From a bacterium (GTDB lineage: Bacteria; Patescibacteriota; Minisyncoccia; UBA6257; JAGOQP01): a stretch of DNA of 38,112 nt. Shown here piece after piece: positions 9,226-14,250 of the stretch. The stretch lies in the NCBI GenBank assembly GCA_021812345.1, contig JAKANP010000007.1, positions 1 through 38,112 on the forward strand, read 5' to 3'. Numbering within the stretch: position 1 is the stretch's first letter; each line of letters begins with the position of its first letter. Position numbers and translations under genes: made by a program. Below the pieces are notes generated by a model that ran no database searches, was not told the origin of the DNA, and worked only from the letters and a program-made list of their open reading frames with translations.

Positions 9226-12200
9226 ATGCTAAGAAACTTAAAGAACTTTAACCCGCCGGAAATTGAAGAAAAAGTCCTTCAATTTTGGAAAGAAAAGAAT
9301 ATTTTTCAAAAAACTCTTAAAGCAAAAAAGGGAAAGAAAAATTTATCTGCCAATAAACAGGAAAAAGTTTTTAAATTTTGGGAAGGTCCTCCGACGGCAA
9401 ACGGTCGGCCGGGAATTCACCATGTTTTAGCCCGTTCATTCAAAGACGTCGTTTTGCGTTTTAAAACGATGCAAGGATTTATAGTCCCACGAAAAGGCGG
9501 TTGGGATACGCACGGCCTTCCGGTGGAAATTCAAGTTGAAAAACAGCTTGGATTCAAAAATAAAAAAGACATAGAAGATTACGGAATCGCAAAGTTCAAT
9601 CAAAAATGCAAAGAATCCGTCTGGCTTTATCAAAGCGAATGGGAAAAACTTACCGAGAGAATGGGTTTTTGGCTTGATTTGAAAAATGCCTACATTACTT
9701 ACCACAAAAATTATATGGAATCTTTGTGGTATATAATCAAGCAGGCATGGGATAAAAAATTGATGTATCAGGGACATAAAGTCGTTCCGTGGTGCACTCG
9801 TTGCGGAACGGCTCTTTCTTCCCACGAACTGGCGCAAGGTTATAAAGAAACAACCGACACCTCCGTTTATATAAAATTCAAATTATTAAAAGGACAGAAA
9901 ATTACTCTTCGACAAGCTCAGAATAAAATTCAATATTTTGAGGTTGATGATAAAACTTACATCTTATCTTGGACAACCACTCCCTGGACTTTGCCTGGAA
10001 ACGTCGCTTTGGCTGTTGGAGAAAAAATAAAATACGGAATTTATAGACAAAAAAACAACGAAAAATTCATAATTGCTTTGGATTTGATTGATACTTTAAA
10101 AGATTATGATTTTTCGGAAAAAATTTCTGAAGTTTCCGGAAAAGATCTGGTTGGATTTGAATATGAGCCGTTATTCAAAATAAAAAAATTAAAGAACGAA
10201 AAAACTTATAAAATATATCCGGCTAGTTTTGTTACTACTACTGATGGAACAGGAGTGGTTCATACGGCTGTAATGTACGGAGCGGACGACTACGAGCTTG
10301 GCAAGGAAGTCGGACTTCCTAATATTCACACCGTTAATGAACAAGGTTTATTTATTGATGAAGTGGTAGGACTATCCGGACTTTATGTCAAATCAAAAGA
10401 AACGGAAGATAAAATACTAAAATATTTGGAAGAAAAAAATTATTTACTTGGAAAACTGGATTACACTCACGAGTATCCGTTTTGTTGGCGATGCGGAACC
10501 CCATTGATTTACTACGCGCGAAGTTCCTGGTTTGTAAAAATGCCTGAATTGAAAAAAGAAATGATTGAAAGCAATGAAAAAACAAATTGGGTTCCTTCTC
10601 ATATAAAAAACGGCAGGTTCGGAGAGTGGCTGGAGGATGTTAAAGATTGGAATTTCTCCCGCGAAAGATATTGGGGAACTCCGCTTCCGATTTGGAAATG
10701 CGAGAGTTGCGGAGAATTTAAAGCAGTCGGAAGTTTTTCCGAATTATCGCAATTTCTCCCTTCCGGGACAAATAATTACGTTTTAGTCAGACACGGAGAA
10801 GCGCTACAAAATATCGAAAATATAATCAATGGCAATCCCAAGAATAAAGATGAATTTCCGCTTACCTCAAAAGGAAAATCTCAGGCGAAATTGGTTGCTC
10901 AAAAGTTGTCAAAATTGAAAAATAAAATAGATTTGATTGTCGCTTCTGATTTTCTCAGGACGAAAGAAACGGCCGAGATAATCGCTAAAAAATTAAAGAT
11001 AAAAGAAATAGTTTATGATAAAAGATTGAGAGAGGTTTATACCGGAGATTTTGACGGCAGTGATGTCAAAAATTATCACGAGTATTTTTCCTCGCTTGAA
11101 GAAAAATTTATGAAGCCGACCCCCAACGGAGAAAGCTTAAGAGATTTAGCGTTAAGGCAATACGAATTTGTTAAAGCTTTTGAGAAAAAATATAAAGATA
11201 AAACAATTCTTGTCGTTGGTCACGAATATCCTCTTTGGATGCTGGAAACTGTTTTGTCCGGATGGAGCCAAGAGGAATCGGTTAAAGTCAAAGAATCAAG
11301 AGGAAGCGATTTTATAACTTATGCCGGCTTTGATGTGGCATCCTACCTCCCGGCATCAAGAGATGAGTGCGGAATTTGCGATTACCACAAACCTTATGTT
11401 GATGAAATAACTTTTTCTTGCGATAAATGCGGAAAAACAATGAGGCGAGTTAAGGAAGTTGCCGACGTTTGGTTTGATTCCGGCTCTATGCCTTTTGCTC
11501 AAGACCACTTTCCTTTTATAAAGGACAAAAAAACAAATTATTTTCAAGCAGATAAAAATGAAATAAAAAATCCTTCAAAATTCATAACTTATCCGGCCGA
11601 TTACATTTGCGAAGCGGTGGACCAAACTCGAGGCTGGTTTTACACACTGCTTGCCGTTTCCACCGTTTTAGGATACAAAACGCCATTTAAAAGTGTTGTT
11701 TGCTTGGGACATATCAATGATAAATACGGACAAAAGATGTCAAAATCAAAAGGCAACATCGTTGATCCGTGGGCGGTTATAAACAAATACGGGATTGACG
11801 CTATCAGGTGGTATTTTTACACCGTAAACGCTCCCGGTGATTCAAAAAATTTTGATGAAGTCGAAATTTCAAAAGTGCTAAGACGTTTGATGCTTACCGT
11901 TTACAATTCGTTTGCCTTTTTAAATTTATATGGAAAAAATAAATGCAAGATAGATTCGGCGCCGAATTCAAACAATGTTTTGGATAAATGGATAATATTA
12001 AAGACTCAAGAATGCGCCGATGCTGTCGGCAAAAAAATGGAAGAATATAATTTTCTTGAATCCGGACAAATAATAGAATCTTATGTTGATGATTTATCCA
12101 GGTGGTATATCAGGCGTTCCAGAAAAAGGTTCCAAAAAGTTCAGGATAAAAAAGATTGGGAACAGGCATCGGCAATTTTGGCTTATTCCTTGCTTGAACT

Positions 12201-12849
12201 TTCAAAAATTATGGCGCCATTCACTCCGTTTTTCTCGGAAGCGATTTATCAATCACTGGCGTCGCTTGAATCGTTTTCTGCCAAAGAATCGGTCCATCTT
12301 GAATCATGGCCGGAAAAAATAAATAAAACTTCAACCAATCAAAACTTGATTGATGAAATGTCAAATATAAGAAATCTGGCGTCTGCGGTTTTGGCAAAAA
12401 GAGCCGAAGTCGGAATAAAAGTCCGCCAGCCATTAAACAAACTTGAAATAAAAAATTATAAATCAAAAAACGAAGATTCGCTTAAATTACTCGATGTCTT
12501 AAAAGATGAGATTAATGTTAAAAAAGTGGAAATAAACGATAAGATAGAAAACGATTTTTTGCTGGATACTGTCATAACTCCGGAGTTAAAGACCGAAGGC
12601 GTTATAAGGGAATTGGTCAGGGCCATTCAAGATTTGAGACAAGACGCCGGGTGTGTTCCGAAGGATAAAATAGAAGTTTGGATTTCCGGAGATAAAAATA
12701 TTGAGGCAATGGTTAATGAAAACCAATTATCCATAGCAAAAGATGTTGGAGCCAAAAAAATATCAATCGGGAGAACCGATAAATTTTCGGCAGAAATAGA
12801 AACCAAAATAGATTCTTCGCCTGTTAAAATAAAAATTAAAAAAATATAA
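9226..12849 (+). CDS. ileS: Isoleucyl-tRNA synthetase (type 2-like) with inserted histidine-phosphatase domain
   Basis: FWEGPPTANGRPGIHHVLARSFKD, GGWDTHGLPVEIQVEKQLG, WTTTPWTLPGNVALAVG, WGTPLPIWKCESCG, VWFDSGSMPFAQ, KMSKSKGNIVDPW; internal RHGEA...SDFLRTKETA...VVGHEYP domain. Confidence 0.96.
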   Translation: MLRNLKNFNPPEIEEKVLQFWKEKNIFQKTLKAKKGKKNLSANKQEKVFKFWEGPPTANGRPGIHHVLARSFKDVVLRFKTMQGFIVPRKGGWDTHGLPVEIQVEKQLGFKNKKDIEDYGIAKFNQKCKESVWLYQSEWEKLTERMGFWLDLKNAYITYHKNYMESLWYIIKQAWDKKLMYQGHKVVPWCTRCGTALSSHELAQGYKETTDTSVYIKFKLLKGQKITLRQAQNKIQYFEVDDKTYILSWTTTPWTLPGNVALAVGEKIKYGIYRQKNNEKFIIALDLIDTLKDYDFSEKISEVSGKDLVGFEYEPLFKIKKLKNEKTYKIYPASFVTTTDGTGVVHTAVMYGADDYELGKEVGLPNIHTVNEQGLFIDEVVGLSGLYVKSKETEDKILKYLEEKNYLLGKLDYTHEYPFCWRCGTPLIYYARSSWFVKMPELKKEMIESNEKTNWVPSHIKNGRFGEWLEDVKDWNFSRERYWGTPLPIWKCESCGEFKAVGSFSELSQFLPSGTNNYVLVRHGEALQNIENIINGNPKNKDEFPLTSKGKSQAKLVAQKLSKLKNKIDLIVASDFLRTKETAEIIAKKLKIKEIVYDKRLREVYTGDFDGSDVKNYHEYFSSLEEKFMKPTPNGESLRDLALRQYEFVKAFEKKYKDKTILVVGHEYPLWMLETVLSGWSQEESVKVKESRGSDFITYAGFDVASYLPASRDECGICDYHKPYVDEITFSCDKCGKTMRRVKEVADVWFDSGSMPFAQDHFPFIKDKKTNYFQADKNEIKNPSKFITYPADYICEAVDQTRGWFYTLLAVSTVLGYKTPFKSVVCLGHINDKYGQKMSKSKGNIVDPWAVINKYGIDAIRWYFYTVNAPGDSKNFDEVEISKVLRRLMLTVYNSFAFLNLYGKNKCKIDSAPNSNNVLDKWIILKTQECADAVGKKMEEYNFLESGQIIESYVDDLSRWYIRRSRKRFQKVQDKKDWEQASAILAYSLLELSKIMAPFTPFFSEAIYQSLASLESFSAKESVHLESWPEKINKTSTNQNLIDEMSNIRNLASAVLAKRAEVGIKVRQPLNKLEIKNYKSKNEDSLKLLDVLKDEINVKKVEINDKIENDFLLDTVITPELKTEGVIRELVRAIQDLRQDAGCVPKDKIEVWISGDKNIEAMVNENQLSIAKDVGAKKISIGRTDKFSAEIETKIDSSPVKIKIKKI

Positions 12850-12939: not shown

Positions 12940-14250
12940 ATGACATCTCCAATCATTAATAAAAATAAGTTTTCTCAAACAAAAATGAGAAAAGACGCGA
13001 TGAAGATAATTGAAAGCGCCTATGAAGCGATAGATATTCAAAAAACCGTATCCCAAAGATTTGTTGTCGATGGCGATATATTGAAAGTTTCCAACGCATC
13101 TTTGGAAAAACATTTTCATCTTGATGATTACAAAAATATTTTTGTTATCGGCTTTGGTAAGGGTTCTTTTGCCGCCGTTTCCAAAATGTCGGATATTTTA
13201 AAAAATAATCTCACATCTGCAGTTTCGTTGGATGTTAAGGATTCTTTTCGACCGAAGAAAGCAAATAATAAAGTTCGGGCTTATTGGGGGACTCATCCTC
13301 AGCCATCTATTAAAAATATTAAAGCAACCAAAAAAATTGTTTCTATCGCCAAAGACGCCGGCAAAGACGATTTAATTATTTATTTCATTGGTGGCGGGGG
13401 ATCTTCTCTCCTGTGCGGTTCATTAAATGAGCTCAAATATGCAAAAACTCTTTTTAATAATTTGACCCGCAAGGGAGCGACGATAGATGAAATCAATGTT
13501 GTCAGAAAACATATTTCCGAAGTGAAGGGCGGAAATTTGGCAAAGTTTACTTATCCGGCGCAATCTTTATCTTTGATTGTTTCGGATGTTTGTGGAAATC
13601 CGCTTGAGGTAATCGCTTCCGGCCCGACTATTTATGATAAAACTAATGTAGAAGACGCTATTATTGTTTTGAAAAAATACGATATTTCAATAGAAAATAT
13701 ATTTTTTGTGGAAACGCCAAAGGATAAACATTATTTTGACAGATGCGAATATTTTTTATTTGCCTGTGACGAAGATGCGGTAATGGCGATGATTAGCAGG
13801 GCAAGAGCGCTTGGATACAAAGCATCTATCGGTTCTTTAGCTTTGGTTGGCGAAGCAAAAAGCGCGCTTCTGCCTTTTGTTAAAAAAATAAAATCTAATG
13901 AAGTCATTATTTGCGCCGGAGAGACAACGGTTAAGATAATAGGCAAGGGGAAAGGCGGAAGAAATCAAGAGGCGTGTCTTTCAATTATAAATCAATCGCA
14001 GGAAGGCAATTTTGATATTTCGAAAATTTTAGTTTCCAGCTTTGCTTCGGATGGATTTGATAATACTCCTGTTGCCGGCGCCATTGCCGACGTTATGACT
14101 TTAAAAAAAACAATTTCAAAAAAAATAAATTCTTTTGATTATTTAAAAAATAACGACTCTTATTCTTTTTTTCAAAAAACCGGAGATTTTCTTCGTGTTG
14201 AAAGGAAGGCATTCAATGTCGCCGATTTGATGTTGATAATAAAAGAATAA
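12940..14250 (+). CDS. Glycerate 2-kinase, MOFRL/DUF4147 family
   Basis: GFGKGSFAAVSKM, GTHPQPS, YFIGGGGSSLLCG, LIVSDVCGNPLEVIASGPT, ICAGETTVKIIGKGKGGRNQEACL, SFASDGFDNTPVAGAIAD. Confidence 0.92.
   Translation: MTSPIINKNKFSQTKMRKDAMKIIESAYEAIDIQKTVSQRFVVDGDILKVSNASLEKHFHLDDYKNIFVIGFGKGSFAAVSKMSDILKNNLTSAVSLDVKDSFRPKKANNKVRAYWGTHPQPSIKNIKATKKIVSIAKDAGKDDLIIYFIGGGGSSLLCGSLNELKYAKTLFNNLTRKGATIDEINVVRKHISEVKGGNLAKFTYPAQSLSLIVSDVCGNPLEVIASGPTIYDKTNVEDAIIVLKKYDISIENIFFVETPKDKHYFDRCEYFLFACDEDAVMAMISRARALGYKASIGSLALVGEAKSALLPFVKKIKSNEVIICAGETTVKIIGKGKGGRNQEACLSIINQSQEGNFDISKILVSSFASDGFDNTPVAGAIADVMTLKKTISKKINSFDYLKNNDSYSFFQKTGDFLRVERKAFNVADLMLIIKE

Follow-up and report, generated by a model that had tools for sequence, protein, structure and literature searches.

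A histidine-phosphatase domain nested in the zinc loop of isoleucyl-tRNA synthetase across Parcubacteria

Aminoacyl-tRNA synthetases with an added enzyme domain have been described. The methionyl-tRNA synthetase (MetRS) of Mycoplasma penetrans has an appended aminotransferase domain that supplies the amino acid (PMC7694997). Among isoleucyl-tRNA synthetases (IleRS), the GXHH motif is reported to confer hyper-resistance to mupirocin in type-2 enzymes (IleRS2; PMC10485003). The type-2 IleRS of S. griseus, the only bacterial type-2 enzyme studied, and the valyl-tRNA synthetase (ValRS) of E. coli are both without tRNA-dependent pre-transfer editing (PMC4861432). Class I synthetases count among the best-conserved enzymes, and we describe here an apparently active histidine phosphatase (HP) that is retained within one such enzyme across a bacterial class. 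Searches of open-access full text turned up no earlier account of a synthetase that contains a histidine phosphatase.

The window, which is the whole stretch of 38 112 nucleotides that was analyzed, contains an ileS gene (Table 1) with a frame that is open throughout. Its product passes the ileS equivalog model (NCBIfam TIGR00392; 852 bits against a cut-off of 621.4), and the order of its Pfam domains is tRNA-synt_1 (E value 2.5e-107) split by His_Phos_1, followed by the anticodon-binding domain. The best structure matches of the full chain, both by sequence and by fold (Foldseek), are IleRS of type 2 (IleRS2) and of eukaryotes. The class I signature has the swapped GXHH form, which is present in 60 of 104 nested IleRS and has a distribution in this set that does not follow the HP insert. 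The editing site appears to be intact, with the TTT motif accompanied by His346 and Asp355, and both CxxC pairs flanking the insert are retained in about 90% or more of 56 aligned fusions. Fusions and insert-less relatives conserve the HIGH-equivalent, KMSKS and editing residues alike, and the synthetase therefore appears to be fully functional. As judged from its sequence, the gene encodes a canonical synthetase, probably a type-2-like IleRS, in which the HIGH-equivalent, KMSKS, zinc and editing residues are all intact and for which charging activity is predicted.

A preliminary description of this DNA had proposed that a histidine-phosphatase domain is nested in tRNA-synt_1 of this uninterrupted frame, with synthetase motifs on both sides and about 200 extra residues where IleRS has a short linker. 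These points are borne out by the present analysis. His_Phos_1 (PF00300) matches residues 519–685 with 107 bits against a gathering cut-off of 21.7 (E value of about 1e-30, or 1.3e-32 in a scan of the own genome), and the domain sits between the two CxxC knuckles of the zinc loop of the catalytic domain. The alignment with the Thermus thermophilus enzyme (PDB entry 1ile) is interrupted at residues 508–719, where about 210 residues stand against 11 in 1ile (477 to 489), and the coordinates given in the preliminary description (10741..11370) take in the insert together with its linkers. No PF00300 match other than the nested domain is present in the 725-kb genome to which the window belongs. The catalytic signature that had been read from the letters is complete, consisting of the RHG motif (Arg522-His523-Gly524), Arg578, Glu603 and His666. 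Eight residues (Arg522, His523, Ser574, Arg578, Gly607, Glu636, Arg644 and His666) are invariant in the alignment of 56 fusions, which diverge to ∼40% identity; the two histidines and two arginines that had been proposed for a survey across IleRS are thus conserved in 56 of 56. None of the outcomes that the preliminary description would have taken as refutation was observed, the Pfam match being strong, the catalytic residues conserved and the assembly sound. Trp671 of an H-x-x-P-L-W motif is present not only in the fusions but also in the free-standing HP copies of families f12 and f23.

Table 1. Coordinates of the IleRS gene, its synthetase motifs and the nested phosphatase domain in the window.
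Feature	Position	Strand	Basis
IleRS gene with nested phosphatase domain	9226..12849	+	1207 aa; TIGR00392 852 bits; Pfam architecture
Class I signature GIHH (aa 63-66), swapped GXHH form of HIGH	9412..9423	+	Sequence
CP1 editing-domain TTT (aa 250-252)	9973..9981	+	Conserved in nested and insert-less IleRS
First CxxC knuckle of zinc loop (C492, C495)	10699..10710	+	C in 53/56 and 50/56 fusions
Whole insert with linkers (aa 506-715)	10741..11370	+	Gap versus 1ile
Histidine phosphatase branch-1 domain PF00300 (aa 519-685)	10780..11280	+	Pfam; Foldseek
R522-H523, predicted phosphate-binding Arg and nucleophile His	10789..10794	+	Identical in 56/56
R578, second catalytic Arg	10957..10959	+	Identical in 56/56
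E603, predicted general acid	11032..11034	+	E in 54/56, D in 2/56
H666, second catalytic His	11221..11223	+	Identical in 56/56
W671 of H-x-x-P-L-W motif	11236..11238	+	55/56; near-invariant in main clade
Second CxxC knuckle of zinc loop (C732, C735)	11419..11430	+	C in 53/56 and 51/56 fusions
KMSKS motif	11734..11748	+	Sequence; K/S/K invariant

The insert is predicted with confidence by AlphaFold2, a check that the preliminary description had proposed, with a pLDDT of 95.8 when modeled alone and of 89–97 within the full chain (pTM of 0.81 over 1200 residues). A Foldseek search with the insert retrieves branch-1 phosphatases, including PspA (4ij6; TM score 0.77), PhoE, Rv2419c and TIGAR, and the domain score, the set of catalytic residues and the predicted fold all place it in branch 1 of PF00300. 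We conclude that the insert is, according to the models, a histidine-phosphatase domain that folds autonomously and is threaded into the zinc loop; phosphatase activity is predicted from family knowledge and from conservation. The insert falls below the equivalog cut-offs for dPGM (NF038349; 82 versus 225 bits), CobC (alpha-ribazole phosphatase, TIGR03162; 71 versus 163 bits), PspA (phosphoserine phosphatase, NF045917; 66 versus 350 bits) and SixA (phosphohistidine phosphatase, TIGR00249; 39 versus 74.5 bits), and family membership thus gives no substrate. Between the window and a same-genus genome, dN/dS is 0.059 for the insert and 0.065 for the synthetase core, and the two values are alike in most of ten pairs, with the insert dS saturated in two of these. 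The catalytic set of HP is under strong selection. Distances of HP and of the IleRS core are moderately correlated (Mantel r of 0.405, with 0 of 999 permutations as high), which is consistent with a mostly shared history and some exchange.

The architecture is identical in same-genus genomes, with insert identities of 87% and 65%, and 92 of 101 relatives have a match to the insert, mostly within frames of ∼1100–1260 residues. In an even sample of 112 genomes of the class, at least 74 show a PF00300 match within a frame of 724 residues or more, the number being a lower bound that was counted among the matches listed. All 12 large HP frames retrieved for an identity check, which were picked for their oddest lengths, are IleRS, and one further frame (G424; 928 residues) is ValRS; no other large host of HP was seen among the matches listed for this sample. 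Relatives named among the matches listed include Jorgensen-, Wolfe-, Nomura-, Giovannoni-, Sung-, Colwell-, Azam-, Uhr- and Nealsonbacteria and other Parcubacteria, and the nested architecture is shared by AP024682.1 and CP011209.1, both titled 'complete genome'. One locus labeled Spirochaetia (L090) clusters tightly with Parcubacteria sequences and is probably mislabeled. Genome G016 has two different IleRS genes (L016 and L041), each with a nested HP. Five genomes of the class (G302, G067, G084, G092 and G070) have an insert-less IleRS and no HP nearby, and the partnership is therefore dispensable. Separately, the IleRS frames of three loci of family f26, which belongs to the same order as the window (L155, L156 and L157, in G072, G086 and G056, respectively), contain 9–12 in-frame TGA codons in the matched part; the f26 IleRS genes have 11–15 TGA codons each at conserved Trp columns, which suggests that this family may decode UGA as Trp. 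Typing of most of the 41 tRNAs of G056 showed no Trp tRNA of either kind.

Among the best 80 matches in 85 000 genomes, 75 are nested in IleRS and five are free-standing, and each of the five lies upstream of an insert-less ileS. Four of these (L108, L120, L126 and L133) abut or overlap the ileS frame, and in the fifth (L128) a HAD-like gene lies between HP and ileS. Abutting HP and ileS genes also occur at two loci from other samples (L060 and L192), with a third (L190) in which they are near. HP thus accompanies IleRS either as a nested domain or as a neighboring gene. An argS gene directly precedes HP in L060 and L108 and is further upstream in L120, and an ArgRS-like gene is found upstream of ileS at 39 of 80 loci. 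Thus, argS–HP–ileS and argS–ileS(HP) look like alternative layouts of a single set of genes. In families f12 and f23, HP and ileS are not linked, and the neighbors of unlinked HP genes (SecA, MurF and an O6-methylguanine methyltransferase) offer no hint of a substrate. In the window, a glycerate 2-kinase-type gene (DUF4147/MOFRL; 12940..14250) lies directly downstream of ileS. This context was considered as a functional clue and set aside, as a MOFRL-type gene is downstream of ileS at only eight of 80 loci. In family f9, a PF00719 gene adjoins ileS ∼1.5–2 kb from the insert in three of the five genomes having PF00719 (G020:C2, G061:C1 and G077:C44).

HP is also found in further arrangements. 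IleRS of other classes contain two HP domains in tandem (L049–L051), and the 1572-residue IleRS of G340 (L048:667-5382) contains three at three sites. Eight retrieved proteins that NCBIfam identifies as ValRS have HP in the homologous loop, and L173 and L191 are additional cases. The IleRS of the Patescibacteria genome G146 (L052:1638-5990) combines a GNAT-like insert with HP at another site, and the 1277-residue ValRS of G326 (L053:327-4157) has three nested enzyme domains: a HAD hydrolase, a serine hydrolase and a histidine phosphatase. The catalytic residues are kept in nearly all HP copies, including those of ValRS and of the two- and three-copy proteins; the second histidine is missing in L062, a ValRS copy, and in L063. 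The finding is therefore broader than the single protein of the preliminary description, being class-wide in Parcubacteria, split within an operon, present in ValRS and found in two or three copies. A different fusion was observed in G273 of family f79 (L059:1867-3177), in which a VTT-domain membrane protein has a C-terminal histidine phosphatase; matches in other f79 genomes are in frames of similar length.

In the HP tree, a clade with support of 99/99 comprises the Parcubacteria IleRS inserts, their split and unlinked relatives and three free-standing copies from the phylum, the placement of which is uncertain. The IleRS inserts of f101, f80, f109 and f88 and the ValRS inserts lie outside this clade at several places. 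A single clade of all IleRS-type HP, a natural group although the hypothesis was set after the tree, is rejected (AU p = 0.012), and a single clade of ValRS inserts is compatible with the data (AU p = 0.107). Along the IleRS tree, at least ten switches of the nested state are counted, with gains and losses pooled and in a sample enriched for HP. The phylogeny indicates that HP entered IleRS on several occasions.

We propose that the protein may be a bifunctional synthetase–phosphatase in which HP acts on phosphorylated species arising at Ile/Val charging, a reading to which we assign an even chance. From family knowledge, phosphoryl hydrolysis would proceed via a phospho-His523 intermediate, with the phosphate held by Arg522, Arg578 and His666 and with Glu603 as the acid. 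Less certain is the further proposal that HP is retained at IleRS, and elsewhere at ValRS, because its substrate is a phosphorylated species that is made, released or met at Ile/Val charging, so that HP would clear or repair something that otherwise slows charging. Aminoacyl-nucleotide-like compounds, along with other phosphorylated inhibitors, would be the leading substrate class, which we name tentatively. The preliminary description had named aminoacyl-adenylate by-products, phosphorylated nucleotides and a signaling nucleotide as conceivable substrates. The GNAT and serine-hydrolase classes are known from immunity to aminoacyl-nucleotide antibiotics. The microcin C proteins MccE and MccF are named in PMC9239234. 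By-products of editing are weakened as the main substrate by the lack of tRNA-dependent pre-transfer editing in S. griseus IleRS and E. coli ValRS.

The charging-coupled role is favored by the conserved active sites, the low dN/dS, the restriction of the large hosts seen to IleRS and ValRS, the use of mostly the same loop, the recurrence, the split genes adjacent to ileS and the tandem copies, and likewise by the association of a second phosphatase fold (HAD) with ValRS in L053 and with the HP–ileS operon in L128. Against coupling stand the insert-less IleRS with no near HP in several genomes of the class and the unlinked HP of f12 and f23; the GNAT and serine-hydrolase inserts, of unrelated chemistry, would also suit a site that is merely permissive. 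More broadly, HP could represent an unrecognized quality control of branched-chain aminoacylation in Patescibacteria, as a standing partner that IleRS and ValRS have gained repeatedly, in nested, tandem or operonic form. It would then dephosphorylate a charging-related molecule or the synthetase–tRNA complex, adding a proofreading or repair site to the synthetic and editing sites; we offer these two statements jointly as a possibility well short of probable.

The main rival to the charging-coupled role is that ileS took in a housekeeping phosphatase during genome reduction, one whose substrate has nothing to do with charging, because the zinc loop tolerates insertions and the host gene is essential and well expressed; HP would then be active and uncoupled from IleRS. 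We consider this rather unlikely. It is in keeping with the occurrence of HP as the sole PF00300 protein of the own genome, with the nesting of other enzyme domains (GNAT, HAD and serine hydrolase) in IleRS and ValRS, with the persistence of unlinked copies in f12 and f23, with the only moderate distance correlation and with the dispensability of the partnership in several genomes. Against it, the large hosts seen are only IleRS and ValRS, with several acquisitions and mostly the same loop, and split HP genes remain directly upstream of ileS; nor does co-expression call for the two or three HP copies that some genomes have within a single IleRS. An improbable alternative is a repair phosphatase, a built-in antidote that strips phosphate which toxins or regulatory kinases have placed on the synthetase or the tRNA end. 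Tethering of a phosphatase to its target suits both the nested and the operon states, and kinases that phosphorylate synthetases exist, HipA acting on GluRS, but the known kinase targets are other synthetases.

Two further explanations are very improbable. The resemblance of the insert to dPGM-type proteins and the absence of a match to soluble pyrophosphatase (PF00719) in the own genome would fit a substitute for a missing phosphoglycerate mutase or inorganic pyrophosphatase, but both functions are covered in this genome, by a phosphoglycerate mutase of full length (TIGR01307; 541 bits) and by a membrane pyrophosphatase (PF03030; 873 bits), and HP thus replaces neither enzyme. In addition, nested HP coexists with either type of pyrophosphatase (PF00719 in f9 and PF03030 in f1), and the insert is below each dPGM equivalog cut-off shown. 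A role for HP in place of a lost editing site was also rejected, since the editing residues are conserved to the same degree whether or not the insert is present. The second explanation, for which the preliminary description had left room, is that the insert has become structural, steadying the zinc loop after loss of catalysis. Its location in an intact structural loop and the L062 copy without the second histidine could be read in this way, but the catalytic residues are invariant over fusions as divergent as ∼40% identity at the lowest and purifying selection on the insert is strong (dN/dS 0.06). Finally, an assembly chimera or a gene-calling artifact has a negligible chance of accounting for an architecture that recurs in same-genus genomes and in more than 100 independent assemblies, closed genomes included.

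The charging-coupled reading would imply that a phosphate-hydrolyzing step is tied to Ile/Val charging, a step that textbook enzymes either do without or leave to a separate protein. It would also open a way into the physiology of bacteria that are uncultured and depend on hosts. The inserts show, in addition, that a single zinc loop is a hot spot for wiring enzymes into a synthetase. In its synthetase fold, zinc loop and editing domain, the protein resembles type-2 IleRS such as Priestia megaterium IleRS2 (8c8v) and T. thermophilus IleRS (1ile); it differs from the known structures in having a 210-residue phosphatase insert where they have ∼11 residues, and none of the IleRS chains among the structure matches listed covers the insert. 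The insert shares its fold (TM score of ∼0.75–0.77) and its catalytic residues with the branch-1 phosphatases PspA (4ij5/4ij6), PhoE/YhfR (1h2e/1ebb), Rv2419c and CobC, but it has only 22–30% identity to them, scores below the specific equivalog cut-offs shown, is nested in a synthetase and has its own conserved HxxPLW motif. M. penetrans MetRS is likewise a case of a genome-reduced bacterium in which a synthetase has been joined to a metabolic enzyme; that fusion, however, is terminal, occurs in one species and has a different chemistry, whereas the present one is internal, class-wide and recurrent. The window protein is also comparable to the IleRS of NCBIfam model NF040702 (ileS_w_GNAT) in bearing an extra enzyme domain, which here is a phosphatase and not GNAT, and it scores 292 bits with this model against a cut-off of 1999. 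Thus, while fusions of enzymes to synthetases are already known, a histidine phosphatase inside IleRS or ValRS looks to be undescribed in the open-access full text searched, with a substantial chance of new biochemistry.
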